A stretch of DNA of 59,721 nt, taken from the IMG/VR virus record IMGVR_UViG_3300037459_000161, positions 1-59,721 of that record; one strand, 5' to 3'. This document shows positions 1-33,193 of the stretch, one piece after another. How positions within the stretch are numbered: the first letter of the stretch is position 1; every line of letters starts with the position of its first letter. Source of the DNA: a virus. The translations under genes and the position numbers were made by a program. Under the pieces are notes generated by a model that was given only the letters and a program-made list of their open reading frames with translations, was not told where the DNA came from and ran no database searches.

Positions 1-127
1 AATATCAACTTCACCATTTTCTACAGCGACACTAAAATCGTCCGCCCTATCTTCCTTATCTCCTGTCGGTCTGTCTAGCTCCACTCGCCTATTCACTAAC
101 CTTCTTTGTGTACCTTCTGCGCTTTCT
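1..127. repeat. terminal overlap, left copy
   Basis: These 127 bases are identical to 59595-59721. The length is typical of a k-mer overlap left by a short-read assembler on a circular or circularly permuted molecule, and the terminase ORF reads straight across the join. I therefore treat it as an assembly overlap, not as proven terminal repeats. Confidence 0.95.
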
Positions 128-1335
128 TTACCACCGCTGCCCGGTTCTTGTTCTACTACTATCCATACCTTCTTACCATCTGCGTTACTTGTTTGCATTA
201 TGACTTGTTCACGCTTCCCACTACTCCATTGCCCTCTCCTAATATCGTCTATGAAATACTTCGACTTTCTCTCTTTACCGTTCTCGTCGAAAGTGCCATT
301 TTTCCTCGGTACTCTGTATCTTCCCATCCTTAACCCGACGGTATATGCCCCTCCACCCGCTGTACCTGCTTTGTCCCAAGATCGCCATCTCTTCTTTACA
401 TTCATTTCTCTAATTTCGTTTACATAGTTAATTTCATCTATCTTGAACATATTTCCTTCGCGCGCGCTAGGCTCTTGTTGCATTTGCCCCGCGTAGCCAT
501 AAGAGCCTAATGCGTGCTTCATATCTTGATTTGCTGTTTTTCCAACTCTATTCTTCCACAGTAATTCATCTTCCTTTGTTCTAGGATCTTCAAAACCGAT
601 CTCTGTAAAACACTTCTTTTTAACTCGAAATTCTAATGGTAATTTTAAATGTGTGTAATTGCCTTTTTCAATTACATGCCCACTTAAATCATATTGGTGA
701 CTACGCTGCATAATGATAACTTTGCCACCCGTCTCTGGATCGTTTAAACGAGTTGACATAGCTTCATCCCACCAAAGAATTGCATTTTTACGAACTACTT
801 CAGATTCAATTTCTACAATGTTGTGTGGATCATCTACGGTAATAATGTGGCCTCCCTCTCCCGTCACAGCCCCGCCAACCGACGTAGCAAGCCGATATCC
901 ACCGTCGGTGTTGTAGTAGCTCGACTTGACGTTTTGATCGCTGCTGAGAGCAATGTGGGGCCAGCGCTGTTTAAACCAAGTTGAATTAATTATCCTTCGT
1001 GATTTAACTGCGTCTCTAATTGCTAATTGATGGGCATATGAACTTGTTAACCATTGCATTCCTGGATTCTGTATCCAACTCCAAACAGGCCAAAACACAG
1101 AAATGATTAAAGACTTCATAAAACGCGGAGGTATATTTACAAGTAAGTTTCTAATTTCTCCGCTTTGTACTGCTTCGCAATGTTCGGCAATTGCTCCTAT
1201 ATGCCAGTTGTTTTTAAATTCTGTTTGTGGTTCTACTACATGCCAAGCTTGTTCAATAAAATTCACAAGATGCCGAGTTGCTAATTCCGTATCTATAGCA
1301 TCAGGCTGTTCTAGTAATTCCTCTACGGAGAGCAA
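1..1335 (-). CDS. terL: terminase large subunit, N-terminal 445 codons (continues at 59594)
   Basis: ATPase-nuclease motor that packages DNA into proheads. Reading leftward and across the join the protein is 489 aa. Visible motifs are an ATPase P-loop-like NIPPRFMKS (about residue 75), a Walker B-like HIITVDDPHN, and a C-terminal RNaseH-type nuclease start SWDKAGT. The likely start is a TTG at 1335, preceded by a strong GGGGAGG ribosome site and overlapping the end of the small-subunit gene by 13 nt. No ATG lies near this position. The frame is open to base 1 and continues at 59594. Family assignment is confident; the exact start is inferred from the ribosome site. Confidence 0.9.
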   Translation of the reverse strand, partial: MLSVEELLEQPDAIDTELATRHLVNFIEQAWHVVEPQTEFKNNWHIGAIAEHCEAVQSGEIRNLLVNIPPRFMKSLIISVFWPVWSWIQNPGMQWLTSSYAHQLAIRDAVKSRRIINSTWFKQRWPHIALSSDQNVKSSYYNTDGGYRLATSVGGAVTGEGGHIITVDDPHNIVEIESEVVRKNAILWWDEAMSTRLNDPETGGKVIIMQRSHQYDLSGHVIEKGNYTHLKLPLEFRVKKKCFTEIGFEDPRTKEDELLWKNRVGKTANQDMKHALGSYGYAGQMQQEPSAREGNMFKIDEINYVNEIREMNVKKRWRSWDKAGTAGGGAYTVGLRMGRYRVPRKNGTFDENGKERKSKYFIDDIRRGQWSSGKREQVIMQTSNADGKKVWIVVEQEPGSGGKESAEGTQRRLVNRRVELDRPTGDKEDRADDFSVAVENGEVDI

Positions 1336-1934
1336 GTAAAATCCTCCCCTTCAGTAAGTTCTAAAACTTCCTTCTCTGGTTCTTGTGAATTTGATTGAAT
1401 AAGTTCTAGTTGTTTACGTAGCTCTTTAATTGCTACGAGTTGTGCAGTGGGAATTTGTTTCAGTTCGAGTTTAAACGTTTCATCTTCTGTTGTATTGAGA
1501 TCAATAACAACTTTGTCACCATACCTACCTGGATTCATCTTTGACGCTAAGAACTTTCTAGCGTCAATTGACATTCGAGCAGATTCAATACTTCTTTGTT
1601 TTGCGTAAAACTCCGCGCGTTTTATTTCTGAGTAAGTTGCATCAATTGGTAAATTTTCAACTGCGCGTTCTGCTGCAAGTCTTGCAATGTCATCTACGTT
1701 ATCTGCAATCATGATGATATCATGTGCAAAAGAATCAGCTTGGTCTAATCTTGCGCGCGCGTACAAATTCGCCCAAGACCTTTCCGCCCCATTTTCACCA
1801 TTTGTCCAACGCCACACAGTTGTCGAAGTTGGCATATTTGGATCAAAACAAATTTGACGTAAAGTCTCGCCGTTTCTCAATCTTTCTAAAAGTTCATTAG
1901 CTAATGTCTTTTCAAACTGTATAGGTTTAGACAC
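1323..1934 (-). CDS. terS: terminase small subunit
   Basis: 203 aa. DNA-recognition subunit of the packaging motor. The N-terminus looks like a helix-turn-helix (RQICFDPNMPTSTTVWRW), followed by a helical oligomerisation region (AFYAKQRSIES type) and the KMNPGRYGDK motif common in Terminase_5/Sf6 gp1-like small subunits. The start is GTG with AGAGGAAAT upstream. It lies immediately upstream of and overlaps terL, the canonical order. Confidence 0.85.
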   Translation of the reverse strand: MSKPIQFEKTLANELLERLRNGETLRQICFDPNMPTSTTVWRWTNGENGAERSWANLYARARLDQADSFAHDIIMIADNVDDIARLAAERAVENLPIDATYSEIKRAEFYAKQRSIESARMSIDARKFLASKMNPGRYGDKVVIDLNTTEDETFKLELKQIPTAQLVAIKELRKQLELIQSNSQEPEKEVLELTEGEDFTCSP

Positions 1935-2005
1935 GCTATTTCCTCTTAGTTAGCTACATACAGCACGCTCTTATGTATGTCAATAATCTCAAAACATTTA
2001 CTCCT

Positions 2006-2383
2006 TTATATGTAAGTGGAAGCCCATTCTAAAAACACTTCTTTGTTTAAACGGATATACAATCCATCTACGCCTATCGTTTCAGACGAAATTAAAAATT
2101 CCCACTGTTTGTAGTTTTGTCGAAACATAACAACAGGTATATACAATTTACCCAATGCTTTAAATTTAACATGCACTGTATGAATTTGTATCCACCATGC
2201 ATTTAACGATAAAGTCTCTTGCCGTTTAAACTCCCAAATAAATGGCTTGCTAAATGCATCGGCCCCAAAGAAAGATTGATTGTGTATGCGAGCTACTTTA
2301 AATCGACTTCTATATAGATGTGTTGATAACCAATCGCAAGCTTCGTCTTCACCATCTTTACCTTTTTGTTTTCTGTTAACCAT
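2006..2383 (-). CDS. PD-(D/E)XK nuclease, Holliday-junction-resolvase-like
   Basis: 125 aa. Shows the small endonuclease layout: KGKDGEDEACDWL (N-terminal Glu helix), FFGADAF (catalytic Asp) and FIWEFKRQ (E-x-K). This pattern fits phage HJ resolvases and related structure-specific nucleases acting before or at packaging, and it sits directly upstream of the terminase genes. I chose the ATG that overlaps the upstream gene by 8 nt; a GTG at 2407 is an alternative start. Substrate is inferred from the fold only. Confidence 0.6.
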   Translation of the reverse strand: MVNRKQKGKDGEDEACDWLSTHLYRSRFKVARIHNQSFFGADAFSKPFIWEFKRQETLSLNAWWIQIHTVHVKFKALGKLYIPVVMFRQNYKQWEFLISSETIGVDGLYIRLNKEVFLEWASTYI

Positions 2384-2549
2384 TTTCACTTCTAACACAA
2401 TATTCACTACACAATATATTAAATGTATTTTTACTAGTAACAGTTACCCAACCTATGGGCATAACATCTAAAATATCTTGATATACGTCGTTAGTAATAA
2501 CAATTTCTTCTTTAACACAATTATCACATTTAAATTTTATCTCAACCAT
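2376..2549 (-). CDS. small zinc-ribbon-like protein
   Basis: 57 aa with two Cys pairs, CDNC near the N-terminus and CSEYC near the C-terminus, spaced as in a one-zinc ribbon. The ATG overlaps the stop of the upstream gene by 8 nt (translational coupling). Function unknown. Confidence 0.6.
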   Translation of the reverse strand: MVEIKFKCDNCVKEEIVITNDVYQDILDVMPIGWVTVTSKNTFNILCSEYCVRSENG

Positions 2550-2754
2550 CGTATTCAACATGCTCCAAACCCCAAAGCATTGAACCAGAATCATTTCTAC
2601 CAAGTTCTATTTTATGTCCACTGTGCATAAACTCAAATTGAATAGCACGTACCATAATATCAACTCCAGCTTCTAAAGTATGTCTTTCATCTTGATGTAT
2701 TGAATAAATAATTTTCTCTTTACAATCGTGACATACAAACATAACTTTAATCAT
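2542..2754 (-). CDS. small Cys-pair protein, MIKV family
   Basis: 70 aa beginning MIKVMFVCHDCKEK. The chosen ATG has a very strong AAGGAGGA ribosome site at 2761-2768; the frame is also open upstream to a weak GTG at 2847, so a 101 aa form cannot be excluded. The N-terminus resembles two other small genes nearby (MIKVQYF at 3638, MIKVRFL at 4110). Function unknown. Confidence 0.55.
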   Translation of the reverse strand: MIKVMFVCHDCKEKIIYSIHQDERHTLEAGVDIMVRAIQFEFMHSGHKIELGRNDSGSMLWGLEHVEYDG

Positions 2755-2836
2755 ATTTGGTCCTCCTTCAGTGTATTTAACACTATTCGGTTTACAATAA
2801 ATTACTTCCCCATTTACAATCACTTTTGTAATTGCA

Positions 2837-3022
2837 TCAGTAATCACTTTTCAACTTGCCTTTCATATAATTATGATATCCAATAACATGCGCAGCAGTC
2901 ATTTCTTTTTCAGTCGATTCTAATTCATCGAATTGCCAAGGTGGATAATAAACTTTCACTACGACATATTTTCCTTGTATCATTACGATTTTCTTCTCTT
3001 TATATACGCATTTTTCACACAT
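2837..3022 (-). CDS. hypothetical protein
   Basis: 61 aa, starts MCEKCVYKEKK with one CxxC pair. It is the first gene to the left of the inverted-iteron element, so the element forms its upstream region. No clear ribosome site. No family recognised. Confidence 0.45.
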   Translation of the reverse strand: MCEKCVYKEKKIVMIQGKYVVVKVYYPPWQFDELESTEKEMTAAHVIGYHNYMKGKLKSDY

Positions 3023-3078
3023 GATAACTTTTCCATATAATCATGAGAGTTTGATTAACATGCATAGTTTAACTACGC

Positions 3079-3131
3079 TTACTACGTCCTTACTACCATT
3101 TTACTACCACTTTACTACCTTACTTACTACC
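3079..3131 (+). repeat. left iteron array (TTACTACC)
   Basis: TTACTACG at 3079 followed by TTACTACC at 3090, 3101, 3112 and 3124. The spacing is 11, 11, 11 and 12 bp, that is, about one helical turn, so a bound protein would sit on one DNA face. Confidence 0.9.
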
Positions 3132-3334
3132 TATAACTATATAATATATATACATAATCTTGATTATTCACTCTGTTTTAGGCTTGACCCCGACCCCTCA
3201 AACTCACCCACTCTTTACCTACCCGACACCTACTCTTTACCTGCCCATTTGGCGATCGCCTCCGCACGCAGGCGGGGGTCTTTTCAAGATGCATTTCAAA
3301 TGCTCTATTTACAATTTAAAATCAAATACTTACG

Positions 3335-3398
3335 GGTAGTAAGAAACGTAGTAAAATGGTAGTAAATGGGTAGTAAACGGGTAGTAAATAGGTAGTAT
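3335..3398 (-). repeat. right iteron array (GGTAGTAA, inverted)
   Basis: GGTAGTAA at 3335, CGTAGTAA at 3347, GGTAGTAA at 3358, 3369 and 3380, and GGTAGTAT at 3391. The spacing is 12, 11, 11, 11 and 11 bp. This is the reverse complement of the left array. The single 12-bp step and a C-for-G variant occur in both arms, though not at mirrored positions. Confidence 0.9.
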
Positions 3399-3407
3399 TT
3401 TAAGTTA

Positions 3408-3638
3408 TCAAATGATGTTTATGAACCTTTTAGCAAAATTATATTCAACTTCAATTGTCTTAATTTCGCCAACTGAAGAGTGAAATTTTCCTATAATACC
3501 GCCAACCCATCTACCTTTTCCTCTAAATCTAAAATAAATACTAAGATGATTAGCATAGTTAAATGAAATCCAAACCTTTTGATTTTCGTTAAATCTATGT
3601 GTTTTTCTAGTTGATTTGAAATATTGTACTTTAATCAT
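3408..3638 (-). CDS. hypothetical protein, MIKV family
   Basis: 76 aa, begins MIKVQYFKSTRKTH, basic and beta-rich by eye. The ATG lies one base after the stop of the upstream gene. It lies directly upstream of the iteron element. Function unknown. Confidence 0.5.
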   Translation of the reverse strand: MIKVQYFKSTRKTHRFNENQKVWISFNYANHLSIYFRFRGKGRWVGGIIGKFHSSVGEIKTIEVEYNFAKRFINII

Positions 3639-3639
3639 T

Positions 3640-3903
3640 TCAAGCATCTATCTTTTTCCATCCTTCATCATTTATTTGGTAATGCATACCATAACCAGGA
3701 CAACTAAATAATTCTCTATCCCAGTTAATTGTTGAATTCCAATTTAATGCGCTAAAATATTTTCCAGTTATCTTAATACGTCTACATTTACATAAAAATC
3801 CATTATGTTTATTCATGCAAAAAATTCCAAGTAGTAAACCATCACGATTTAGCACTTTGCGGTGTAAATTGGTTTCATGGTGGCACGTTGTACAGTCACT
3901 CAT
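3640..3903 (-). CDS. Cys-rich small protein
   Basis: 87 aa with CTTCHHE at the N-terminus and FCMNKHNGFLCKC in the middle, a pattern able to bind one zinc. It sits in a run of leftward small genes with 1-8 nt gaps or overlaps. No family recognised. Confidence 0.55.
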   Translation of the reverse strand: MSDCTTCHHETNLHRKVLNRDGLLLGIFCMNKHNGFLCKCRRIKITGKYFSALNWNSTINWDRELFSCPGYGMHYQINDEGWKKIDA

Positions 3904-3906
3904 TAT

Positions 3907-4110
3907 TTAAATATATATGTATAAGTATTCAAAACTAGCGTCATTAAATTGACCTTCTATACCAGCCAATTTGATTTTTGTACGCCAACTATGTTGTTCA
4001 ATATTTACCACTTCATAAACTTCTCCTACTCTACATTCTTTGCTAGGGTCGTCATTGTTACCCCAACTTGTTTGGTTTGAATCTGCTCCTAGAAATCTTA
4101 CTTTAATCAT
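3907..4110 (-). CDS. hypothetical protein, MIKV family
   Basis: 67 aa, begins MIKVRFLGADSN. The start ATG overlaps the upstream stop by 4 nt (ATGA), which decides it over the upstream in-frame codon at 4119. The middle part (RVGEVYEVVN) resembles a small beta-barrel. Function unknown. Confidence 0.5.
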   Translation of the reverse strand: MIKVRFLGADSNQTSWGNNDDPSKECRVGEVYEVVNIEQHSWRTKIKLAGIEGQFNDASFEYLYIYI

Positions 4111-4319
4111 TCTATACAACTCACTTTCAAGTTTCTAACTCCCTGTTTTAATTCTAAACGCAAACCTTGCAATAAATGGGTCAAATTACAGGACGCCGCT
4201 GTTTCTCTACCCTGTTTAGTAAAATTTAAATCTTCAATATGTTGTGGTAATTGTATTTCAAGTATTTCTGCTAGCCATCCAGAGAAAAAATCATTTCTAG
4301 TCTCAATAATTATTTTCAT
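4107..4319 (-). CDS. hypothetical protein
   Basis: 70 aa, mixed helical, with no recognised motif. ATGA overlaps at both ends show it is part of the translationally coupled small-gene cassette. Confidence 0.5.
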   Translation of the reverse strand: MKIIIETRNDFFSGWLAEILEIQLPQHIEDLNFTKQGRETAASCNLTHLLQGLRLELKQGVRNLKVSCIE

Positions 4320-4447
4320 CTTTTTCTCTTTTCCAATTTTTCTACCTTACCTTTCAAAAACACCATATCTGTTTTCAACAGTGTTACATCGTGTTGTAAT
4401 TGTTGCTCTGGCGTTCTACCTTCGTGAGTAACTTTAAAATAACACAT
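4316..4447 (-). CDS. small protein, possibly longer at N-terminus
   Basis: 43 aa from the only ATG (MCYFKVTHEGR), with a basic coiled-coil C-terminus. The same frame is open further upstream to about 4540 and encodes a convincing Cys-rich segment (IFCKNKF, FCNFYICGMCYF) with no standard start codon. The true gene may begin at a rare start or by frameshift from the 28-codon ORF upstream. The stop overlaps the next ATG. Confidence 0.4.
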   Translation of the reverse strand: MCYFKVTHEGRTPEQQLQHDVTLLKTDMVFLKGKVEKLEKRKR

Positions 4448-4490
4448 ACCGCAAATATAGAAATTACAAAATTCTAAACGTTGATGGAAT

Positions 4491-4577
4491 TTATTCTTGC
4501 AAAAAATCGCAGGGTTCTTTTTTATTTGATGATATTTCCATTATTCCACCTATGTTAACGGGTTCTTTATTCACCAT
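4491..4577 (-). CDS. 28-codon ORF, uncertain
   Basis: Short ORF whose start overlaps the stop of a membrane peptide ORF. It contains an A-rich run before its end, where a +1 shift would enter the open Cys-rich frame of the next ORF. May be the 5' part of that gene. Confidence 0.3.
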   Translation of the reverse strand: MVNKEPVNIGGIMEISSNKKEPCDFLQE

Positions 4578-4636
4578 TTTATAAACACCAAACCAATTAT
4601 TCCAATTAAAAGTAGTGTTATACCAATTTCAATCAT
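4571..4636 (-). CDS. 21-aa membrane peptide
   Basis: Encodes MIEIGITLLLIGIIGLVFIKW, almost entirely one hydrophobic helix, with an ATGA overlap to the upstream stop. Small membrane peptides of this kind are common in phage cassettes; function unknown. Confidence 0.4.
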   Translation of the reverse strand: MIEIGITLLLIGIIGLVFIKW

Positions 4637-4965
4637 AGCCAAATATCCTTTGCTTGTTCTGCTTCTATTTCTTTGTGCTCTTTCCATCCGTCGTAAATTG
4701 ATTTAATAACTACCTTCATATTAATAAACCATATAGTATTCCTACGAGTAAAATAGTCAAAATCATCATGATCTTTTACAAAACCAACTCTTGATATTGG
4801 GAAGCACAATGGATCATCTTTTAATGAAATTTCACATTGATAAAATTCTGTATATTCATCACAGACTAATTTATATGTAGTATTTTTAAATTCAAAGTTT
4901 GTTTTAAAACTAACTTCCCCATCAAGTATTTCGTGAATCATTTGTGCTGAATTTCTTTCACTCAT
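4633..4965 (-). CDS. hypothetical protein
   Basis: 110 aa. The ATG at 4965 overlaps the upstream stop by 8 nt and is preferred to an upstream in-frame codon at 5010. Mixed alpha/beta composition, no recognised domain. Confidence 0.5.
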   Translation of the reverse strand: MSERNSAQMIHEILDGEVSFKTNFEFKNTTYKLVCDEYTEFYQCEISLKDDPLCFPISRVGFVKDHDDFDYFTRRNTIWFINMKVVIKSIYDGWKEHKEIEAEQAKDIWL

Positions 4966-5332
4966 GCCAATCTGGATTCCTTTCTTTTGCAATTTTTGCG
5001 TATTTTTCAATCATTTCAAGTCCATCTTTTATATCTTCACTAATTAGTGTCAATTGATTTTCTTCATACCAAGCAACCATATTCCACGGTTCGTCATTTT
5101 CGTTAATAAGCATTAAATTGTAACTTTTTATATTATTGCCGCCAAATTTCTGTGCATAGGTATATGAAATTATTGCATCTGTATTACATTCAAAATGGCT
5201 CATACAACTCGGCATTACTTTATCAATTCTTACTCTTTGTCCTCTTAGGAATTTTTGTCCAGGTTGATCCTCTTGAATTGGCATTTGATGCATTACTTGT
5301 GCGTCTGCTAGCCTTACTGCGTATTCTTTCAT
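4958..5332 (-). CDS. hypothetical protein
   Basis: 124 aa. The N-terminal segment FLRGQRVRIDKV and the later NDAWYEE-like part suggest a small beta-barrel, then a charged helix (EMIEKYAKIAKERN). ATGA overlap with the upstream gene. Function unknown. Confidence 0.55.
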   Translation of the reverse strand: MKEYAVRLADAQVMHQMPIQEDQPGQKFLRGQRVRIDKVMPSCMSHFECNTDAIISYTYAQKFGGNNIKSYNLMLINENDEPWNMVAWYEENQLTLISEDIKDGLEMIEKYAKIAKERNPDWHE

Positions 5333-5514
5333 TTAGATTCCTCTTCTGCTTCTATATTTTTAAGTTTTTGTGTAATAACATTTGCACATAAAACAACACT
5401 TTGTTGTAAATGTTTAAAATCTTCTTCATCTAATTCAAAACTAACCATTTTAACAAAAATCTCTGCCGCCAATTCTCGGCGGAATGCTTTTAGTGAATTG
5501 CTTCCGTTAGCCAT
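5329..5514 (-). CDS. small helical protein
   Basis: 61 aa, predicted mostly helical and acidic at the C-terminus. Coupled to the next gene through an ATGA overlap. No family recognised. Confidence 0.5.
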   Translation of the reverse strand: MANGSNSLKAFRRELAAEIFVKMVSFELDEEDFKHLQQSVVLCANVITQKLKNIEAEEESK

Positions 5515-5522
5515 TTTTAATC

Positions 5523-5774
5523 CTATATAAAATCTTTTTCTTGTGGTAGCCTACCAAATTTTTCAACCCACATATCTCCAAAAGTGCAGGCTGCCGAATG
5601 TCTAAACATAAATAAAATTTCATCATTCAGTATTTTATCAACAGATAGACAATCTGAATATGACATTTCTGGGTCTGTATTTGATTTAAAATTAACTTCG
5701 TAATGTTTTGGTTTTCCTGTTGATAATTCATAATGAACATGAATTCCTGTTATAGTAGCTTTCAAAGTTTTCAT
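5523..5774 (-). CDS. hypothetical protein
   Basis: 83 aa from ATG; the frame extends to a TTG at 5795 that would overlap the upstream gene. Mixed beta-rich sequence. Function unknown. Confidence 0.5.
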   Translation of the reverse strand: MKTLKATITGIHVHYELSTGKPKHYEVNFKSNTDPEMSYSDCLSVDKILNDEILFMFRHSAACTFGDMWVEKFGRLPQEKDFI

Positions 5775-5776
5775 AT

Positions 5777-5959
5777 TTAAAAATACATTCTCCAATTAAT
5801 TAAAATCAACCATAATCTGTGACAAAATTTACAAGTTATAGGGCCTATAAATAACAATACAACAAACCACCAATTTAAACATTCAAATAAATCAAATGCT
5901 TTACCCAAGCAAATACCAAATATTAAAACTTCTATAAAAACAAGACTATAGTTACGCAT
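5777..5959 (-). CDS. two-helix membrane protein
   Basis: 60 aa with two hydrophobic stretches (LVFIEVLIFGICLG and WWFVVLLFIGPITC). An inner-membrane location is likely. The start overlaps the upstream gene by 8 nt. No specific family. Confidence 0.5.
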   Translation of the reverse strand: MRNYSLVFIEVLIFGICLGKAFDLFECLNWWFVVLLFIGPITCKFCHRLWLILINWRMYF

Positions 5960-6143
5960 GTTTAAACGTAATTCCCATATTCACCGTAAACAATACGGTG
6001 TGCCCAATCCAACATAGTTTCTCCTGCATTTCTAGGTATCTTTTTATAGATTTAAATGTAATTTCAGATCTTTTTTCTCGTTTCATCATTTCTCTTAATT
6101 GTTTTCGTTGCATTTTTGCTCGTTCTCGTTCATGGCTATACAT
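5952..6143 (-). CDS. small basic protein
   Basis: 63 aa, strongly charged N-terminal half (RERAKMQRKQLREMMKREKR). The start may instead be the ATG at 6113, which would shorten the overlap with the upstream gene from 49 to 19 nt. Confidence 0.45.
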   Translation of the reverse strand: MYSHERERAKMQRKQLREMMKREKRSEITFKSIKRYLEMQEKLCWIGHTVLFTVNMGITFKHA

Positions 6144-6328
6144 TTCTTCTCAGCCTTTCTCATTATGAATTTGCGTTCTTTTAACAACCATAAATAACCA
6201 GCTAATCCTTCATTAACTGGACGTTTTGCTCCTTCGATAAATACCTGCCTTGATTTTGGATGAAACACATAAACAACTCTTTGTAATAATGGTATATCTA
6301 CAATTAATCTACGCCTATCTATTTTCAT
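6095..6328 (-). CDS. hypothetical protein
   Basis: 77 aa, basic N-terminus, Lys/Glu/Asn-rich tail. Leftmost-reading member of the 2-6.3 kb small-gene cassette. Function unknown. Confidence 0.45.
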   Translation of the reverse strand: MKIDRRRLIVDIPLLQRVVYVFHPKSRQVFIEGAKRPVNEGLAGYLWLLKERKFIMRKAEKKCIAMNENEQKCNENN

Positions 6329-6413
6329 TTATCACTTATTTTTACTCCGACGGGATTTTGATATTTACTATTCCTCACAAACAACCATTATTTCAACCCG
6401 ACCATCTAATTCT

Positions 6414-6827
6414 CTAATTCTCGTTGTTAATGAGAATCCCGAGTATTGGTTGGCCGGGCATTCCAAGAGGGATAGGTGTAGGTGTGGGCGTAGGAGTAGG
6501 ATCAGGATCTACAATAACAGAGAAATAAACTTTTTCAGATCGTGGTGACATTGGGCCTTGATTATTCATATCATCGAGAGCAGCAACTTGAACTTCAATA
6601 CGTTCACCATCAACACCAGTAATTGTTGCAGAGTTAATATCAACAATTTGTTCTGATTTCCAAGGTGGGGTATTATTTCGCAAAATTTGAACTACATAAT
6701 TTACAACTGGTCCAGTTGCTGGCGTCCAAATAAATGTTGCTTCTGTACCTATAACTGTGTTGCTGTCATCTTGCGCAAAAGCTGGAGTAGCCAGAAGCAG
6801 AAAAATAACTAGAATTATTCGTTTCAT
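6414..6827 (-). CDS. secreted Fn3-like protein with Pro-Thr linker
   Basis: 137 aa. A clear Sec signal peptide (KR, then IILVIFLLLATPAFA, cleavage before QDD) is followed by one fibronectin-III-like beta domain (ATFIWTPATGPVVNYVVQI ... VQVAALDD) and a PTPTPTP linker, ending with a short hydrophobic tail. Export to the periplasm or surface is expected. Such exported phage proteins may act in lysis, superinfection exclusion or adhesion; which one cannot be read from sequence. Confidence 0.7.
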   Translation of the reverse strand: MKRIILVIFLLLATPAFAQDDSNTVIGTEATFIWTPATGPVVNYVVQILRNNTPPWKSEQIVDINSATITGVDGERIEVQVAALDDMNNQGPMSPRSEKVYFSVIVDPDPTPTPTPTPIPLGMPGQPILGILINNEN

Positions 6828-6946
6828 GATCTCTCCTTTATTTCTAAACCTACAATTGGTAAATCAACTTCAAATTCCTTACCACATATTTCATCTTCTT
6901 TTACTAACACAATTATGTAACCTTCTTTCTTTTTCTTACCATCCAC
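6824..6946 (-). CDS. small protein, GTG start
   Basis: 40 aa, GTG start inside the end of the RHH gene, stop overlapping the ATG of the exported-protein gene (TCATGA). Basic N-terminus then beta-like segment. Called because both overlaps look coupled; moderate confidence. Confidence 0.4.
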   Translation of the reverse strand: MDGKKKKEGYIIVLVKEDEICGKEFEVDLPIVGLEIKERS

Positions 6947-7077
6947 TCATACAAACGAATAGCTGTTCTAATGACATTAGCAATTGAAGTTTCGCTTAAT
7001 CTATGTTTAAACGCCTCCAATTCTTTAAAAGCCATTTCTCCTAAATCAAATTGTACTCTCTTTAATTCCTGTTTCAT
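6913..7077 (-). CDS. ribbon-helix-helix DNA-binding protein
   Basis: 54 aa. An N-terminal strand (LKRVQFDLGEMAF) followed by two helices (KELEAFKHRLS, SIANVIRTAIRLYEWM) is the Arc/MetJ ribbon-helix-helix layout. Dimeric transcriptional regulators of this size are common in phages. ATGA overlap with the upstream gene. Target operators unknown. Confidence 0.6.
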   Translation of the reverse strand: MKQELKRVQFDLGEMAFKELEAFKHRLSETSIANVIRTAIRLYEWMVRKRKKVT

Positions 7078-7268
7078 TCTAACAACCTTTTGATATCTTG
7101 CTTTGCTAGTGGTTCGTCATCGTCGATCATTTGAATTACAGTTTGAATCTTTTTTAATTGTGTAATTGATTGTCTAATCATTTGTTTGTGTGCGCCTATT
7201 CTATACGAGACCATTTCAGTTTCTACCATATAGTTTAAACCATCAATAAGTTCGTCTAATTCAATCAT
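7074..7268 (-). CDS. small helical protein
   Basis: 64 aa, largely helical, overlapping its neighbours by 4 and 8 nt. No family recognised. Confidence 0.5.
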   Translation of the reverse strand: MIELDELIDGLNYMVETEMVSYRIGAHKQMIRQSITQLKKIQTVIQMIDDDEPLAKQDIKRLLE

Positions 7269-7923
7269 TTATTTTTCTCTCTTTGAAATTATTACAAGCT
7301 GGTAAATAATTTGGTCCGTGTGGCGGATTAAGATGCTCAAAGTGTAATGCATAAGTGTAACCGCATTCACCGCAAATTGTTCCAATAGGAATTACAACTT
7401 CTGGTTGTATTTCTTTCTCTTTAAACTCACTACAAACTTGAAGTGCCACCCTTTTAGCTGGATAACTATCTACGTGATTTGAATATGTGTTACCACAAGT
7501 ATCGCAAATTGTTTCTGATTTTGGTGCTATTATGAAATTTATACTAATTTTTTCTCCAGGTTCAATATCCCCAATAGGAATTTTAAAACTTGAATCAAAA
7601 CAACTTGATTTTTCTGAATTACAGATACTGCAATTTGCAGCTACATTAGTATGTTCACACAATTCTGGTTCTTTTAATCTACTACGAAAATGTAAATCAG
7701 ATTTTGGTCTACCTACATATCCATTTTCATCAGCAGAAATTTCTTCTTCATTCATTTGTTCGACAATTTCTTTTACTACGTCATAGAATTCTGAAAATGG
7801 CATCCCTTTCGGTGGTTTAAGCCTAACTGTATAAAATTTAATTGGTGACAACAATTTAACAGTCATATTAACGACTATTTTGCCTTCTTCATAATTGCAT
7901 TCTACTTTGATTTCATTTGACAA
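7261..7923 (-). CDS. multi-zinc-ribbon protein
   Basis: 220 aa, TTG start with GAGGG upstream. A beta-rich N-terminal half is followed by three Cys/His modules: CEHTNVAANCSIC, CDTCGNTYSNH with a later Cys, and CGECGYTYALH with a later Cys. The last two look like internal repeats. Likely a nucleic-acid or protein-binding scaffold; no specific function claimed. Confidence 0.6.
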   Translation of the reverse strand: MSNEIKVECNYEEGKIVVNMTVKLLSPIKFYTVRLKPPKGMPFSEFYDVVKEIVEQMNEEEISADENGYVGRPKSDLHFRSRLKEPELCEHTNVAANCSICNSEKSSCFDSSFKIPIGDIEPGEKISINFIIAPKSETICDTCGNTYSNHVDSYPAKRVALQVCSEFKEKEIQPEVVIPIGTICGECGYTYALHFEHLNPPHGPNYLPACNNFKERKIND

Positions 7924-8035
7924 GATGATCTACCCTCAGTTTCTTTTCCATTTTCATTTTTGCTCTTATAACTAATGCAACACTAGATAAACCAAATGCA
8001 ACACCAGCTAAGAAAGTCAATACATACCAAATCAT
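7913..8035 (-). CDS. 40-aa membrane protein
   Basis: Single hydrophobic helix (WYVLTFLAGVAFGLSSVALVI) followed by a basic tail; N-out/C-in topology expected. ATGA overlap with the upstream gene supports it. Confidence 0.5.
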   Translation of the reverse strand: MIWYVLTFLAGVAFGLSSVALVIRAKMKMEKKLRVDHLVK

Positions 8036-10703: not shown

Positions 10704-11034
10704 TTATTTGTTCCTTTAATTTTTCTGCGTCATTTGGAGAACATATAATTGTGTTTCCATTCATTATATATGGTCCCATCGGTATAAATTTGTAATTCTC
10801 TTTTCGCTTTCTCCACTTCTTTCTAATTCTCTTTGTCTTTGATTTTGGGAAACGAAATTGAATTGATTTTTGCAAGTAATTACTAACGATTACTTTCATT
10901 CCACCAAAATTAACAAGAGAGTCAATAATACTAGGTTTGTAAGATGGGAAATTAATCGGTAACCCATTTCCAGTTGTAAATGTATTCATTTTTCCATAGG
11001 CGTCTAGAATAGTTTGTTTTGTACATACACTCAT
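10678..11034 (-). CDS. hypothetical basic protein
   Basis: 118 aa with a very basic segment (SKTKRIRKKWRKRKENYK) that should bind nucleic acid. ATG overlaps the primase-helicase stop by one base, so the two are co-translated. Confidence 0.5.
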   Translation of the reverse strand: MSVCTKQTILDAYGKMNTFTTGNGLPINFPSYKPSIIDSLVNFGGMKVIVSNYLQKSIQFRFPKSKTKRIRKKWRKRKENYKFIPMGPYIMNGNTIICSPNDAEKLKEQINAEERSSL

Positions 11035-13307
11035 TATTCTTCCATCAGCAATACAAAATCGTCGGTGACCTTGTAAGCTACTTTCGTTCTAACACCCATT
11101 ATTCTTAGCTTATCTTCATGCACAACTACAATCAAGCCGTTCCGCATCATGTAGTATAACATTTTTTCAACGCCAGATCTAGGATTTTGTCTTTCTGGGT
11201 CGTCGTTCATTCTTCTCAACACTTCGTTGTTTCGTAAACATTGAGATAAATTAGTTGACGTAAAAATTCCCTTACCTTTTAATCCTTTTGGTACAGATTT
11301 CTTTCGATCATTATAACCATTATTCAAGATTTTAGACACAACAGGAGCAATTAAATTTTTTACAATTATCATCATATCATCAGAAGCCCCATAAGATAAA
11401 GCCTCTTCGATAGTTTTGATTTCACCTTCAATAGCTTCTCCTGCCCATTTGTATTCTTGTTGGCCGATACCGTTTAAACCATTCATGATCGACGTTATTG
11501 ATGCAATCTTGATTATCTTTATAAACGATCTTGACGCCATAGCTCGACGTAATTGATCGCCTTCTCTTTTGTATTTATTTTCTATATTAGTCCAGTAATC
11601 AGAATCGACTTGAATATTTATGTTAGACGTATCAACATTAATTATTTTACTAGAATTTTCATTTTGTTGTGGTAAACATTTGCGTATTAGATCCTTAATC
11701 CTAACTAAAATTTTGGGATCAAATTCTTTCCGTCGGTGAGTATTTAATTTTTTCTTGTCACGCATTGAGCGCATAACCCAAATTCGAGCAATGTCCCCCG
11801 AAACAGTTGCATCTTTAGCTTTCAATGCGCGCAAATATGAAAGTGGTGTAGAAACATGCGCGATAGTCAATGCTGGAGAGGGAATAGCTGGAATTGTATT
11901 TTCTGAATTTGAATAACTTTCACCACCAGCATATTCACCAGCTCCAGACGAACTAAAAATATCGAGCATTACACGGGTTAATCCTTTTTGATCCCCCGCT
12001 GTTGATTCACTCATTAAACCCGATTCTTCTAACACGCAAACTCTTGAAAGACCACCAGCCATCATATCAAATAAAGCTTTTGGGCCAGTAAACCTAGAAG
12101 CACCTTTAAAAGATGGGCCACCTTCTAATACGCATTTTTTTAATAGAATTGTGTTGATAGTGTTTTTCAAAACAGCTTTACCAATTCCTGTATCTGCTAA
12201 TAGGGCAACATACAAATTAAGTCCAGTGCCCAACACGTTATAACTACGACCAATAATGCCAGCCACAAGAGCAAACGAAGCCATAAGAGAAACCTCTTCG
12301 TTAGCGTGAGGTGCTGTTTCAAAAATGTTCTCACAAAGAATTCCCATTAATCCGGGTGGGTATCCAGTGTTTAATTGATATTCAACTATTTCAATTTTGG
12401 GAATTTCGATATCTGAGACGAGAGGATTGTCTTTTACGAAACGAATTGCATCGGTAATATTTGCAGAGAGATATTCAGGACGAATTCTTGCTTCCCATCG
12501 TTCGTCTTGAACTTTTGAACGATCCATTATATCATTAATTAATGCAAGTAATTCATCAGGGTTTTTGATACCGCAATTAACCCAGTGATTGAGTAACCAC
12601 AGGATTGAACCGTGAAAATTTGTACCTTCAACGATTGCTTCGCGCGCATCATTGAACGACGCAAATTTTAAATTGACAGCGCCGTTTAAACGCTTTTCTC
12701 TAACACTCTTTGATTTAATGGTATTATCGGGAGGGAAAGAATTTACAATTGTAAGCCAGCTATAAGGCTTTTCGTTAAACACATAAAACGTTGATTCGTA
12801 AGGTTCTTTCTTGTTGTGTTTAAACCCTGGAATACGGAGAACCCGAACTAAATCTTTTGCATTACCGTCAGTGTTGAATTTATTAGCTATGCCATTCATG
12901 ACATAACCCCATTCTTCTATTTCGTCGGTAGTTGTAAGCCAATAATAATGAAATTTCCCTTTGCTTGTTTCAACAACGATGTTCGGTATGATCGGAAAAT
13001 CATTTCTCGGCGTTTCTCTAATTTCGTCATCATCAGCCCATATTGCTCTGATAGATTTGAGCATTGTAGAAGTTCTGTGTCGCTGAGGATCTTTCCGTCT
13101 ATCAATTTCATTGACGCAAAAGAAAATTCCATATTCATTTTCGTTTTTTATCCTTAACTTTGCAAGAATATCATCTCTACTTAATTCGTAACCTTCATGA
13201 TAATGTATTGGTAGTCGATACGGTTTGCGATCTTTGCTTTTATCGTCGATCGCGCAAAAAACGTGGTTCCCTGGGAAGGAACTTAAAAATTCTTTCGCAT
13301 CTTGCAC
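11034..13307 (-). CDS. primase-helicase fusion
   Basis: 757 aa. The N-terminal third resembles the RepB/archaeo-eukaryotic primase fold (AIWADDDE with acidic metal ligands, VVETSKGKFHYYWL, DLVRVLRIPGFKHNK). The rest resembles DUF3987-type helicases, with a P-loop-like LLADTGIGKAV and a downstream FSSSGAGEYAGGE. The P-loop has Ala where Ser/Thr normally follows Lys, so ATPase activity may be altered. This is the replication-initiation enzyme of the phage. Its mRNA has a structured leader and a GAAGGGGTT ribosome site. Domain boundaries are by eye. Confidence 0.75.
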   Translation of the reverse strand: MQDAKEFLSSFPGNHVFCAIDDKSKDRKPYRLPIHYHEGYELSRDDILAKLRIKNENEYGIFFCVNEIDRRKDPQRHRTSTMLKSIRAIWADDDEIRETPRNDFPIIPNIVVETSKGKFHYYWLTTTDEIEEWGYVMNGIANKFNTDGNAKDLVRVLRIPGFKHNKKEPYESTFYVFNEKPYSWLTIVNSFPPDNTIKSKSVREKRLNGAVNLKFASFNDAREAIVEGTNFHGSILWLLNHWVNCGIKNPDELLALINDIMDRSKVQDERWEARIRPEYLSANITDAIRFVKDNPLVSDIEIPKIEIVEYQLNTGYPPGLMGILCENIFETAPHANEEVSLMASFALVAGIIGRSYNVLGTGLNLYVALLADTGIGKAVLKNTINTILLKKCVLEGGPSFKGASRFTGPKALFDMMAGGLSRVCVLEESGLMSESTAGDQKGLTRVMLDIFSSSGAGEYAGGESYSNSENTIPAIPSPALTIAHVSTPLSYLRALKAKDATVSGDIARIWVMRSMRDKKKLNTHRRKEFDPKILVRIKDLIRKCLPQQNENSSKIINVDTSNINIQVDSDYWTNIENKYKREGDQLRRAMASRSFIKIIKIASITSIMNGLNGIGQQEYKWAGEAIEGEIKTIEEALSYGASDDMMIIVKNLIAPVVSKILNNGYNDRKKSVPKGLKGKGIFTSTNLSQCLRNNEVLRRMNDDPERQNPRSGVEKMLYYMMRNGLIVVVHEDKLRIMGVRTKVAYKVTDDFVLLMEE

Positions 13308-13647: not shown

Positions 13648-13962
13648 ATGGGCGCAACAGCAAGAAAAACTTCTGGTTTTGGAATCGCACATTCAGCTAA
13701 TCGAAATAGAAAAGTCAAAATAGTTGTTATGGGGACTTGGAAAGAGAAGCGTTTAAACTTCTTCAAAAGGAATGTTCGGCTTGCTGCGTCTGCAAAAGCT
13801 ACAAGAACTTCTTTAGAAGTAACACAGGAAGAAATTGCAAAGCATTATGGTGTTACTCAAGGTACAGTTTGTAATTGGGAATCTGGAAAATACAGTTGGC
13901 CCAATGGTGCAGCTGAATTGTTTGAATATTACTCTGTAATTAGAAAGATCGCTGGAGTATGA
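13648..13962 (+). CDS. HTH transcriptional regulator (XRE-like)
   Basis: 104 aa. The C-terminal part (VTQEEIAKHYGVTQGTVCNWESGKY) is a Cro/CI-type helix-turn-helix; the N-terminal 35 residues are basic. AAGGAA lies before the ATG. It is the first gene of the rightward recombination operon and is positioned to control the divergent promoters at 13.5 kb. The absence of an integrase argues against a lysogeny repressor. Confidence 0.65.
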   Translation: MGATARKTSGFGIAHSANRNRKVKIVVMGTWKEKRLNFFKRNVRLAASAKATRTSLEVTQEEIAKHYGVTQGTVCNWESGKYSWPNGAAELFEYYSVIRKIAGV

Positions 13963-15720: not shown

Positions 15721-15732
15721 TTTATGAAAACT

Positions 15733-15805
15733 CAGGAGTTAGGATAACTGGAAAATCCATTGGGTTGTGGCCCCGAAAATAAAGGTTCAAGACCTTTACT
15801 CCTGA
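15733..15805 (+). tRNA. tRNA-His (anticodon GUG)
   Basis: Full cloverleaf: acceptor CAGGAGT/ACTCCTG, D-stem GGAT/ATCC with loop AACTGGAAA, anticodon stem TTGGG/CCCGA with loop TTGTGGC (anticodon GTG, U33), 4-nt variable loop, T-stem AAAGG/CCTTT with loop TTCAAGA. The discriminator base is A and position -1 is U, so the G-1:C73 signature of most bacterial tRNA-His is absent. This matches the A73, G-1-less form known in many Alphaproteobacteria. CCA is not encoded. It is the only tRNA I found. Confidence 0.85.
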
Positions 15806-15825
15806 TTTACATACAAAGGTAATCA

Positions 15826-26462: not shown

Positions 26463-27580
26463 GAATAGCTGTAGACGCTACATACCTGTATAAAATGGGT
26501 TCTAATGACAAACTTCAACAATGGACTATTTCAACTGAAGGTGATTTAATCAAAATTGAGTGGGGAGAATTTCAAGGACGCAAACAATACAAAGAAGAAA
26601 TTGTAGAGTTTGGTCTTGCTGGAAGATCTCATGAGGAGCAATTACTTTTAAGAGTACAATCAAGAGTTAATCGCAAACTTGATATTGGTTATGTTTTCAA
26701 TATGAAAGAAGCGCAAAGTAAACTAAAAACAAATCGGCTAGGTTTAAAAATGCCGATGCTCGCAAAAATATGGAGTAAAGTAAAAGAAATAGATTATGAA
26801 AATGCTGTAATTCAACCAAAATTAGATGGACACAGATGTTTGATTTATTTCGACGGTGAAGATTACATAGCTTATTCAAGAAATGGAAAACAAATCACTT
26901 CTATTACAAATATTTTAGCTGACGTTAGTAAATGTGGTATGCAACCTGGAACTACACTTGATGGTGAATTATACCATCATGGAACTGCATTACAAACAAT
27001 TGGTTCTTGGGTTAGGAGAGAACAACCAAACACTGATAAACTTTGTTACACAATTTACGATATGATTCCTGCAATTGATAGTGTTGTTCATGATTGTGAT
27101 TTTAAAACTAGACTTGAAATGCTGCGATCATTGCGTTTAAACAATAATCTTGGGTTACTTGGTTGCATAGAGAATATAACAGAGAATCAAATACCTGAAT
27201 TTTTAAAAAGTGTAAGATCAATGAAATACGAAGGTTTGATAATTCGCCAAGCTGGTTTTGGTTATCAAGATGGAAAGCGGAATAATGCTTTAATCAAAGT
27301 AAAACAATTTCTAGATGACGAATTTGAAGTGATAGATATTCAAGCTTCTAAAGATAGTTTTTGTATTTTACATTGTAGAACACATAATATACTTAGCACT
27401 ATATATGAAACTGTAACTAAAGTCACAGCACCAGGGACATTCGATGAAAAAGACTTTGTATTGGCTAATCGAAAAGATTATATAGGTAGATACGTTACAG
27501 TTGAATTCGCAGATTGGACATTGGAAGGAAAACTTTTCCATCCGATAGCAAAATGCTGGCGAGAAAAAAATGAAGAATAA
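26459..27580 (+). CDS. ATP-dependent DNA ligase
   Basis: 373 aa. The first 75 residues form a small beta domain resembling a WGR domain. The nucleotidyltransferase domain follows: motif I QPKLDGHRC with the adenylated Lys, motif III DGELYHH, motif IV EGLIIRQ, motif V LIKVKQF, then an OB-fold. It seals nicks during phage replication and recombination, next to the phage polymerase. Confidence 0.85.
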   Translation: MRIAVDATYLYKMGSNDKLQQWTISTEGDLIKIEWGEFQGRKQYKEEIVEFGLAGRSHEEQLLLRVQSRVNRKLDIGYVFNMKEAQSKLKTNRLGLKMPMLAKIWSKVKEIDYENAVIQPKLDGHRCLIYFDGEDYIAYSRNGKQITSITNILADVSKCGMQPGTTLDGELYHHGTALQTIGSWVRREQPNTDKLCYTIYDMIPAIDSVVHDCDFKTRLEMLRSLRLNNNLGLLGCIENITENQIPEFLKSVRSMKYEGLIIRQAGFGYQDGKRNNALIKVKQFLDDEFEVIDIQASKDSFCILHCRTHNILSTIYETVTKVTAPGTFDEKDFVLANRKDYIGRYVTVEFADWTLEGKLFHPIAKCWREKNEE

Positions 27581-28439: not shown

Positions 28440-28461
28440 CTCACAGAAGGGGTTTTCTAAA

Positions 28462-29817: not shown

Positions 29818-30350
29818 TCGTCTTTGATACCGAAACAACAGGTTTAATCAAACCTGAAGATTGTTCGATTCACTTGCAACCACATATTACAGAATTTTCT
29901 GGGTTGCAAGTGGATGACAATTTTTTCATACAAAATCAAGTTGATACTTTCGTAAAACCTCCAATACCAATTCCAGATTTTTGCACTCGTTTAAATGGCA
30001 TAAGCGACGAAACTGTTGCTGATGCTCCAGATTTTTTAGATATTTATCCACAATTAGTTGCTTTGTTTTTAGGCGAAACAACTGTAGTAGGACATAATGT
30101 AACTTTTGATTTAGGTGTTCTGTATTTCGAGTTAAAAAGACACGATTTAGAATTTAAATTTCCTTGGCCTCAAAAATGGATTTGCACCGTCGAGAAATCT
30201 ATGCCGATAGAAGGCCATAGATTGACACTGAGCAGACTTTATCAAATTGCCACTGGCAATACCCACGAAGGCGCCCATCGTGCAAAGCAAGACGTTAGAG
30301 CAACGCTAACATGCTATCAATTTCTTCTTAGAAAAGGTTTGATTACTTGA
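29814..30350 (+). CDS. DnaQ-like 3'-5' exonuclease (DEDDh)
   Basis: 178 aa. ExoI FDTETTG, ExoII GHNVTFDLG, ExoIII HRAKQD with His and Asp near residues 155-160. Coupled to the polymerase gene (4-nt overlap), so it is the likely proofreading subunit for the phage DnaE-like polymerase. It could also act as an RNA exonuclease with Ro60 (speculative). Confidence 0.85.
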   Translation: MIVFDTETTGLIKPEDCSIHLQPHITEFSGLQVDDNFFIQNQVDTFVKPPIPIPDFCTRLNGISDETVADAPDFLDIYPQLVALFLGETTVVGHNVTFDLGVLYFELKRHDLEFKFPWPQKWICTVEKSMPIEGHRLTLSRLYQIATGNTHEGAHRAKQDVRATLTCYQFLLRKGLIT

Positions 30351-33193
30351 TTCATCTAGCTCTTAGAACTGAATTTAGTTTTAAGAGTTGTTATGGATTT
30401 CTTGATAAACTAACAGAGTTTGCCGACGAAAATTCTGCTTTAGGAATTGCCGATAATAACAGTACGTTCGGCCATATTAAACATCATAAGAATTGCAGAG
30501 AAAAAGGAATCAAACCTATTCTCGGCGTTCGATTAATGGTATGCAATGAATTCATTGAGAAAAAGAAAACTTGGGGACCAATTTACATTTTTATTGCTAG
30601 AAATAGCATCGGGCTTTCTGAGTTGTATGGTTTGGTTACTAAAGCTTATAGCCAATTTTATTACCACCCACGAATCTGTCAAGAGGATCTTAAAAAAGTT
30701 TCGTCTAATATAATTGTTATTGCAAACACATTCAACACATCAAATAGAGTTGATTTTGTTGGTATAGACCAAACAACACCAGATGTTATTGCAACCTGGG
30801 AAGGAATTAGAAAAGTTGCAATCTGTTTAAACTGGTATCCAAAATTCGACGATAGAGGCGTTTACGAATTATTTGTTGGCGACAAATTAATGGAAGCGCA
30901 AACTTACCCACAATTCATCATGAATGAAAGACAATGGATTCATAATTGTGGTGTTGGTAATAAAACATTAATCGCAATTTCTAACACTGAATTAATTGCT
31001 AGTATGTGTGAAAATTATGATTTGCCACAAGCAACGTTAATCAAATACACTGGCAAAGTAAACAGTCTAAGAGAGCTTTGCTACATCGGCGCGCGTGAAA
31101 GGGGAATGAGTTTAAACGGTGCTTATAAAGGAAGATTAGATAGAGAATTAAGCATAATCAACTCGAAAGGGTTTGCAGATTATTTTCTAGTTGTTTCTCA
31201 AATGGTTTCAGAAGCAAAAAAGAAAATGCTAGTTGGTCCGTCTCGCGGATCTTCAGCAGGCTCTTTAGTTTGTTATCTAATCGGAATCACAGAAGTAGAT
31301 CCAATCAAGTTTGATTTATTGTTTGAACGTTTTGTTGATTTAAATCGTTCTGATTTACCAGATATCGACGTAGATTTTCCAGACACAAAAAGAAAGAAAG
31401 TCATTGACGAACTTATAAAACAATATGGTGAAGATCATGTTTCACACATTGCAACTGTATCAACAAAGAAACCTAGATCAGCAATTGCAGATTTTGCTTC
31501 TGGTTTAGGAATTGCACAGTATGAAACAGAAGAAGTTAAAGATGCTGTTTTGACTGGCTTTGCTGGTGATATTCGAGAAAACAGACGGATAGAAGATACT
31601 TTTGAAACGACAATTGTAGGACGAGAGTTTTTAGAAAAGTATCCTGAAATGGAACTTGTTACACGCATTGAAGGCCATTCAAGTCACGCAGGGGTACACG
31701 CAGCGGGAGTAATTGTGTGTAATGAACCTGTATCTACCTATGGTTCAATTAATGCGCGTGTAGGCGCGTTACAGATGGATCATAAAGACACAGCAAATGT
31801 TGGTCTGTTAAAAATAGATTGCTTAGGATTAAAAACTCTTTCTATTCTTGAAGAAGTTGCAACACAAATCAAGATGCCATTTAAAGATTTTTATTCGTTA
31901 CCTCTCAACGATAAAAAAACATTAGACATTTTCAATGCAATGCGTCTATCTGGAATTTTCCAATTTCAAGGACCAGCATTACAATTTATTACTAGAAAAA
32001 TGGGAGTTAGATCTTTTGATGATATTTGTGCAATTACTGCTTTAGGTCGTCCTGGTCCAATGAAAAGTGGTGGCACAAATTTATTTATTGACAGAGTAAC
32101 TGGAGCAAAAACAGTTGAATATTTGTCAGATCATCCTGCTATTAAAAAATATACTGAAGCAACATTTGGTGTAATTGTTTATCAAGAGCAATTAATGCAA
32201 ATTGCGCGCGAATACGCAGGAATGAGTTGGGAAAAAGTTAGTGAACTTAGACGTGCAATTAGTAAATCAAAAGGCGAAGAATTTCTTGCAGTTTTCAAAG
32301 AAGAATTTATCGACGGTGCAGTAAATAATGGTGCTGAATTACAAGAAGCAAATCATATTTGGGAAAACATAGTTACTTTTGGTGCATACGGATTTAACAA
32401 AAGTCATGCTTATGGATATGGTTTGATTTCTTATTGGACAGCCTATTGTAAAGCGCATTATCCAATGGAATTTGCAGTTGCAAACTTAAATCATGCTACC
32501 AAGGAGCAATCACTTAGACTTTTAAGAGATATGGTCAAGTTTGACAATATCGAATATACTGCTTTTGATCCAGATGAATCACTTGAAAATTGGTCTGTAG
32601 TTGATGGTAAACTTTTAGGTGGTTTATGCAGCTTGAAAGGCATTGCACACAAAAAAGCAAAAGACATTTTAGATTGTCGAGCAGGAAGAAAGAAATATAC
32701 AACTTCGATATTTAAAACTCTAGCTAATCCTGAAAGTGTTTTTCAAATTCTATTTCCTTGTTATCATTGGTGGGGTTGTTTTTTTAATGAACCAAATTCA
32801 TTTGGTTTAGAAAATGCTCCTGTAGAAATTCAAGATGTTAATGGATTAGGTCAATTTTTATTCATTGGAAAAATGACAGAACGAACTTTAAGAGATATGA
32901 ATGATGTTCAATCTATTGCTAAACGTGGTGGACAAATTGTATCAGAAAATAGTTTATTCCTAAGAATGAAAGTTGAAGATGATACTGATATAATCCCAAT
33001 CATAATTAACAGATTCAAATTCGAGAATATAGGTAGAGAAATTCTTGAAACAGGCAAAGTTGGGCATGATTGGTATTTGATTAAAGGTGAAATTATAAGT
33101 GATTGGAGATGTGTTTACGTCGAGGAAATTCTTAACTTGAATGTATGGGCAAAACCAGAAGAGTTTGGTCCAGATTACGAACCCCGAGCATAG
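30347..33193 (+). CDS. dnaE: DNA polymerase III alpha-like (DnaE family)
   Basis: 948 aa, TTG start overlapping the exonuclease stop. PHP-like N-terminus (HLALRTEFSFKSC) lacks the usual metal-binding HxH. The family C palm is intact: GPSRGSSAGSLV, PDIDVDFPD with two catalytic Asp, later GIFQFQG and ALGRPGPM. Shorter than the roughly 1160-aa host enzyme because the C-terminal clamp/tau-binding part is reduced. Phages encoding their own family C polymerase are uncommon. Confidence 0.9.
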   Translation: MIHLALRTEFSFKSCYGFLDKLTEFADENSALGIADNNSTFGHIKHHKNCREKGIKPILGVRLMVCNEFIEKKKTWGPIYIFIARNSIGLSELYGLVTKAYSQFYYHPRICQEDLKKVSSNIIVIANTFNTSNRVDFVGIDQTTPDVIATWEGIRKVAICLNWYPKFDDRGVYELFVGDKLMEAQTYPQFIMNERQWIHNCGVGNKTLIAISNTELIASMCENYDLPQATLIKYTGKVNSLRELCYIGARERGMSLNGAYKGRLDRELSIINSKGFADYFLVVSQMVSEAKKKMLVGPSRGSSAGSLVCYLIGITEVDPIKFDLLFERFVDLNRSDLPDIDVDFPDTKRKKVIDELIKQYGEDHVSHIATVSTKKPRSAIADFASGLGIAQYETEEVKDAVLTGFAGDIRENRRIEDTFETTIVGREFLEKYPEMELVTRIEGHSSHAGVHAAGVIVCNEPVSTYGSINARVGALQMDHKDTANVGLLKIDCLGLKTLSILEEVATQIKMPFKDFYSLPLNDKKTLDIFNAMRLSGIFQFQGPALQFITRKMGVRSFDDICAITALGRPGPMKSGGTNLFIDRVTGAKTVEYLSDHPAIKKYTEATFGVIVYQEQLMQIAREYAGMSWEKVSELRRAISKSKGEEFLAVFKEEFIDGAVNNGAELQEANHIWENIVTFGAYGFNKSHAYGYGLISYWTAYCKAHYPMEFAVANLNHATKEQSLRLLRDMVKFDNIEYTAFDPDESLENWSVVDGKLLGGLCSLKGIAHKKAKDILDCRAGRKKYTTSIFKTLANPESVFQILFPCYHWWGCFFNEPNSFGLENAPVEIQDVNGLGQFLFIGKMTERTLRDMNDVQSIAKRGGQIVSENSLFLRMKVEDDTDIIPIIINRFKFENIGREILETGKVGHDWYLIKGEIISDWRCVYVEEILNLNVWAKPEEFGPDYEPRA

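Follow-up and report, generated by a model that had tools for sequence, protein, structure and literature searches.

The oriV of plasmid RSF1010 carries 20-bp direct iterons together with AT-rich and GC-rich parts, and phage P4 has an ori plus a distant crr. In P4, going by a title cited in PMC8628076, origin recognition, helicase and primase are combined in one protein, alpha. SaPIs (staphylococcal pathogenicity islands) are mobile elements with multiple short iterons and with their own primase (Pri) and helicase (Rep) (PMC7581432, PMC7145576). The Rep helicase recognises short iterons situated downstream of the gene that encodes it, and seems to bind them as two hexamers via its C-terminal domain (PMC7581432). 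Here we describe an element in the window, the whole 59,721-nucleotide stretch of viral DNA that was analysed, which on comparative grounds is likely to be an iteron-type replication origin of a lytic phage. The iterons would probably be bound by the phage primase-helicase or a partner. By analogy, the SaPI Rep model is the closest worked example. The element resembles the SaPI origin in its multiple short iterons and its own primase and helicase and, in the marine relatives L077, L078 and L029, in lying close downstream of the helicase gene. It differs in having a fused primase-helicase of the RepB/Prim-Pol plus DUF3987 type, in belonging to a lytic myovirus and in having an additional C/G-tract block in the core. 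Shared with P4 ori/crr are one protein with primase and helicase parts and short repeats as initiator sites, but here there is a single element with mirror-image arrays. Common to RSF1010 and the window are iterons, AT-rich and GC-rich parts and an N-terminal RepB_primase domain (PF16793), whereas the window has 8-bp words in two inverted arrays and no RepC/RepA pair was seen. The window origin would thus work like the SaPI and P4 origins and be a member of neither family, because the searches made gave no homology between the initiators: no SaPI Rep or P4 alpha homologue was found, the window protein matching only RepB_primase and PHROG 3022/10514 and that of L077 carrying Prim-Pol (PF09250) and DUF3987 (PF13148).

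The window, an IMG/VR virus record from environmental DNA, assembles as a circle of 59,594 unique bases; positions 1-127 and 59595-59721 are exact copies of one 127-bp sequence. This repeat reflects the k-mer overlap left by the assembler in a circular graph and is not a biological terminal repeat, since the end of contig L089 and the start of L107 likewise overlap by exactly 127 bases. That overlap and their shared metagenome indicate that L089 and L107 are probably one genome. The window phage is of the myovirus type, with small and large terminase subunits (TerS and TerL), portal, major head, sheath, tape measure and baseplate proteins, and its gene set is that of a lytic myovirus. A single-sequence search of IMG/VR with TerS gave zero matches. 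For replication the genome encodes a primase-helicase, Pol III alpha, a 3'-5' exonuclease, a ligase, a Sak4-like protein, a DUF669-type ssDNA-binding protein, a Cas4-like nuclease and a DEAD-type helicase. Of these, the primase-helicase, Pol III alpha, Sak4-like protein, ssDNA-binding protein, ligase and helicase make up a complete phage set, which favours an origin in the genome. The C-terminal part of the primase-helicase has a P-loop and is DUF3987-like in alignment with L077; its gene ends 7.6 kb from the element, and 284 phage-collection records match the protein, mostly over part of its length. An AlphaFold model from eight sequences had a mean pLDDT of 37 and was unusable. The genome also encodes a TROVE/Ro60-like RNA-binding protein with a vWA domain (28405-29817), a SpoU-type rRNA/tRNA methylase (27570-28022) and a lone tRNA-His (GTG) at 15732-15806, between the ssDNA-binding protein and Cas4-like genes.

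Table 1. Features of the element and associated genes in the window
Feature	Position	Strand	Remark
left iteron array	3079..3131	+	TTACTACG at 3079; TTACTACC at 3090, 3101, 3112, 3124
right iteron array, inverted	3335..3398	-	GGTAGTAA at 3335, 3358, 3369, 3380; CGTAGTAA at 3347; GGTAGTAT at 3391
core between arrays	3132-3334		203 bp
AT-rich stretch, candidate DNA unwinding element	3132..3166		aligned TATATATAGTTA block common to L106 and L107
C-rich stretch	3187..3246		C-rich on + strand
22-bp direct repeat CACCCACTCTTTACCTACCC / CACCTACTCTTTACCTGCCC	3205-3246		inside C-rich stretch
GC-rich block with short inverted repeat	3251..3280		matches place of C-run/G-run hairpin in relatives
palindrome GGCGATCGCC	3251-3260		in GC-rich block of core
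G-run	3274-3278		core
terminase large subunit (PHROG 38)	1..1335, continuing 59460-59594	-	crosses end of circular map
terminase small subunit (PHROG 1482)	1323..1934	-	
RusA-like Holliday junction resolvase (PHROG 244)	2006..2407	-	
primase-helicase, candidate iteron binder	11034..13307	-	RepB_primase PF16793 N-terminal
small HTH protein	13648-13962		
DNA polymerase III alpha subunit	30347..33193	+	phage's own replicase

The element (Table 1) lies between co-directional minus-strand genes at 2837-3022 and 3408-3647. Five TTACTAC heptamers (3079-3124) form the left array in steps of 11, 11, 11 and 12 bp, and six inverted GTAGTAA/T heptamers (3336-3392) form the right array in steps of 12, 11, 11, 11 and 11 bp, which agrees in number, spacing and position with the initial annotation. 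The single 12-bp step is core-proximal on the left and right alike, which makes the two arrays mirror images of each other, with 79% complementarity between the arms 3079-3145 and 3321-3387. A core of about 200 bp with AT-rich and G-rich parts had also been described. Its length and AT-rich part hold, but the other part is C-rich rather than G-rich on the + strand, and after the G-run the core is AT-rich again up to its end. As in iteron origins, multiple helically phased copies of a short word adjoin an AT-rich candidate unwinding element, which aligns in the relatives L106 and L107. The core palindrome is an extended HIP1 word of cyanobacteria, present in a single copy, and may be due to chance. 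Single-strand folding of the cores was no better than that of shuffles, a point against the origin reading. We took an ORF on the + strand that spans both arrays (3021-3362) as spurious because it runs opposite to its neighbours and has a low-complexity product.

The strong non-randomness claimed at the outset was borne out. Heptamer pairs 11 bp apart with at most one mismatch occurred 7 times against 0.03 expected, a result seen in 0 of 100 shuffles. At 10-12 bp spacing the window repeats one heptamer up to 5 times in a row, whereas the maximum was 2 in 99 and 3 in one of 100 Markov simulations. A scan of the window showed no other element of this kind, and none of 58 other phage loci (542 kb) had even a 2+2 phased inverted heptamer array. 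An Rfam search of window 2.0-4.7 kb and blastn of window 1-8000 against phages each gave zero matches, and blastn searches of phage and plasmid records with the element gave no useful match.

Close relatives were collected through primase- and terminase-based searches. The primases of L089, L090 and L106 are 64-67% identical to that of the window; in L107, L109, L169 and L170 the resolvase is 53-58%, TerS about 50% and TerL 67-69% identical. Within this set, near-identical stretches (99.95-99.98%) occur in different metagenome records, L106/L109 and L169/L170. The array, when looked for in relatives, is conserved: L106, L107 and L169 each carry a comparable element immediately upstream of their resolvase gene, and its order relative to the resolvase and terminase genes is unchanged. 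The element of L107 has TGACTAC at 129, 138 and 149, then a GC-rich block, TATATATAGTTAG, and GTAGTCA at 377, 388, 399 and 410, that is, four plus three 11-bp phased copies of GTAGTCA/TGACTAC. Relative to GTAGTAA in the window, the word is altered in every copy of both arms. L106 has a GC-rich block, TATATATATAGTTA and degenerate GTAGTAA copies, and the L169 contig begins within the element, with the AT-rich stretch followed by GTAGTAA-like copies. In an alignment of the window, L106 and L107, the AGT positions of the right arm are kept at 11-bp steps. The degeneracy of the L106 and L169 arrays counts against an origin. The strongest evidence for selection on the array, acting on it as a group of sites for a protein, comes from these three comparisons.

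About 20 marine contigs, more distant relatives whose TerL shows 36-48% identity to the window protein, share a layout of forward iterons, C-run...G-run, a long A/T stretch and inverted iterons, with the same polarity towards TerS and TerL. Their iterons are spaced by 9, 11 and 12 bp, and the word is TTATGGCA/TTTTGGCA in L025, L032, L077, L049 and L075, TTATTGCA in L029 and ATAACGTC in L078. In L077, L078, L029 and L049 the element is found 0.3-2.6 kb downstream of the primase-helicase gene; in L036, L041 and L042 it is absent at its L077 place, which weighs against an origin. The replication origin put forward in the initial annotation therefore has comparative support in conserved place, conserved anatomy and a concerted word change in both arms, and is further backed by this nearness to the primase-helicase gene. 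However, the primases of L029 and L078 are 87% identical yet their iteron words differ, thus raising the possibility that the binder is not the primase, or that a second protein or a few residues set word specificity.

The element could instead be a packaging site, a pac or cos region with its two arrays as TerS-binding sites and its core as the place of TerL cleavage. The pac site of phage P1 consists of two hexamer clusters, and in the window, too, short elements form two clusters that flank a core close to the terminase genes, 1.1 kb upstream of terS (0.4-0.5 kb in L106 and L107). A pac site should be inherited together with the TerS type, and here it is not. L016, which came from a scan for a DNA pattern rather than from protein similarity, has a half-array of TTACTACC at 7561, 7572, 7583 and 7595 (steps of 11, 11 and 12 bp) followed by AT-rich DNA, with the same core-proximal 12-bp step as the window. 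Its resolvase is 37% identical to that of the window and sits on the same side and the same strand, the RusA-like resolvase being the next conserved gene downstream of the element in the window, L106, L107, L169 and L016, but its terminase and portal belong to phrog_2 and phrog_145 as opposed to phrog_38 and phrog_12. In L075 the HTH part of TerS is 89% identical to that of L029 and 79% to that of L078 but only 51-54% to those of L077, L025 and L049, whereas the iteron word is of the L077/L025/L049 type and the primase is 85-88% identical to theirs. The word tracks primase lineage better than TerS, if imperfectly. These two independent observations uncouple the element from the terminase, which is also where the likeness to P1 pac ends. 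Moreover, the marine elements adjoin the primase and lie 2.2-3.2 kb from TerL, and a pac site is not expected to hold an AT-rich stretch. Because of the unrelated terminase of L016 and the uncoupling in L075, we rejected packaging, one of the roles first suggested for the array, as quite unlikely.

A partition site, the other role suggested, would be a centromere bound by a ribbon-helix-helix or HTH protein. Plasmid R1 parC has 11-bp repeats in two clusters, and the 11-bp spaced arrays of the window resemble it in both respects, except that they are inverted and not direct. A parC-type site would have NTPase and adaptor genes beside its repeats; among the roughly 45 window proteins scanned there was no ParM-, ParA-, TubZ- or ParR-like protein. 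Partition was rejected on this ground, and with the lytic myovirus gene set it is very improbable.

It is also conceivable, though unlikely, that the element is a regulatory region. A phage repressor or activator bound to the arrays would then form a DNA loop and govern either the resolvase-terminase-head operon downstream or the early genes upstream. The position between co-directional genes, a GC-rich block that could end transcription and a small HTH protein in the window would all fit such a role. It accounts less well for an anatomy that stays the same where the downstream genes differ and for a core that is AT-rich with a C/G-tract. A divergent promoter arrangement is absent, and a lytic operon would not usually have as many as a dozen operators.

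Cumulative GC skew had been named as an indicator of the origin, and in its raw form it is uninformative: it turns at the gene-strand switches (about 13.4 and 33.2 kb) and not at 3.2 kb. Since it mirrors gene strand, we discarded raw skew as a guide to the origin. For minus-strand genes, coding-strand GC skew at 4-fold sites has a value of 0.23 over the stretch that starts at 33.2 kb, crosses the map end and stops at the array, and of 0.05 between the array and 13.3 kb. The shift is placed best at the array, with p 0.0145 if this position is taken as given and 0.14 if any position in the genome may be chosen, and the minus-strand genes at 18.9-23.1 kb do not fit the change. This shift lends weak support to an origin at the array.

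For the iteron-type origin, the following mechanism can be proposed. An initiator, most likely the primase-helicase or a small partner protein, would bind each array on one face of the helix, given the 11-bp steps. The two opposed assemblies would strain and open the AT-rich stretch between the arrays, and helicase would be loaded onto the two strands in opposite directions. The exposed C-rich and G-rich strands could supply priming sites, primers would be extended by the phage Pol III alpha, and replication would proceed in one or both directions from about 3.2 kb.

Beyond the window, we tentatively raise the possibility, somewhat short of an even chance, that such elements form a widespread and undescribed class of phage origin. 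It would combine mirror-image phased iterons, a C/G-tract hairpin plus an AT-rich stretch, a fused RepB/Prim-Pol-type primase and DUF3987 helicase, and a word rewritten in all copies between close lineages. If so, the opposed arrays would place two helicases head to head with no need for a host initiator. DUF3987 primase-helicases are common in phages, and we found no description of an origin on which they act in the literature searched. The element would offer a defined substrate for asking how fused primase-helicases recognise and open DNA, and the rewritten words would be natural specificity pairs. It could also serve as a sequence signature for finding origins in uncultured phages, where skew reflects gene strand and so fails.

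Inverted iterons around AT-rich DNA also occur in cultured phages whose primase is of the same kind; these are leads that favour the origin reading and are backed by the copy counts given here. Six exact AGGATAAA/TTTATCCT copies occur in the 25.6 kb read of Vibrio phage VA-RY-3 (MW900438), whose DUF3987 protein is 23% identical; they all fall within 230 bp of one unannotated intergenic stretch (L105 6289-6540) and are inverted around AT-rich DNA. In Rhizobium phage RHph_X3_2, which infects Sinorhizobium americanum, the primase gene is immediately followed by a candidate element (L101 2232-2374) with a smaller inverted motif, GGTATAAAAGGCAT...ATGACATTTATACC. Cronobacter phage Ss1 is a weaker case, with TTATTCCCC/TCTATCCCC about 11 bp apart beside an AT-rich stretch at the start of the record. 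The word TTACTAC/GTAGTCA alone is no marker of the window phage group, because other triples of TTACTAC or GTAGTCA in IMG/VR are mostly in unrelated phages, and PF13148 was found in 0 of 9 records with such triples. Two unrelated phages have mixed TTACTAC/GTAGTAA clusters around AT-rich DNA (L008 3950-4150 and L012 6221-6322), and a DUF3987 protein was not found in either record. L005, L006, L007 and L015 represent another family, with phased repeats of TCTAAG / AGGTAAT and TTACTACTA in both orientations.
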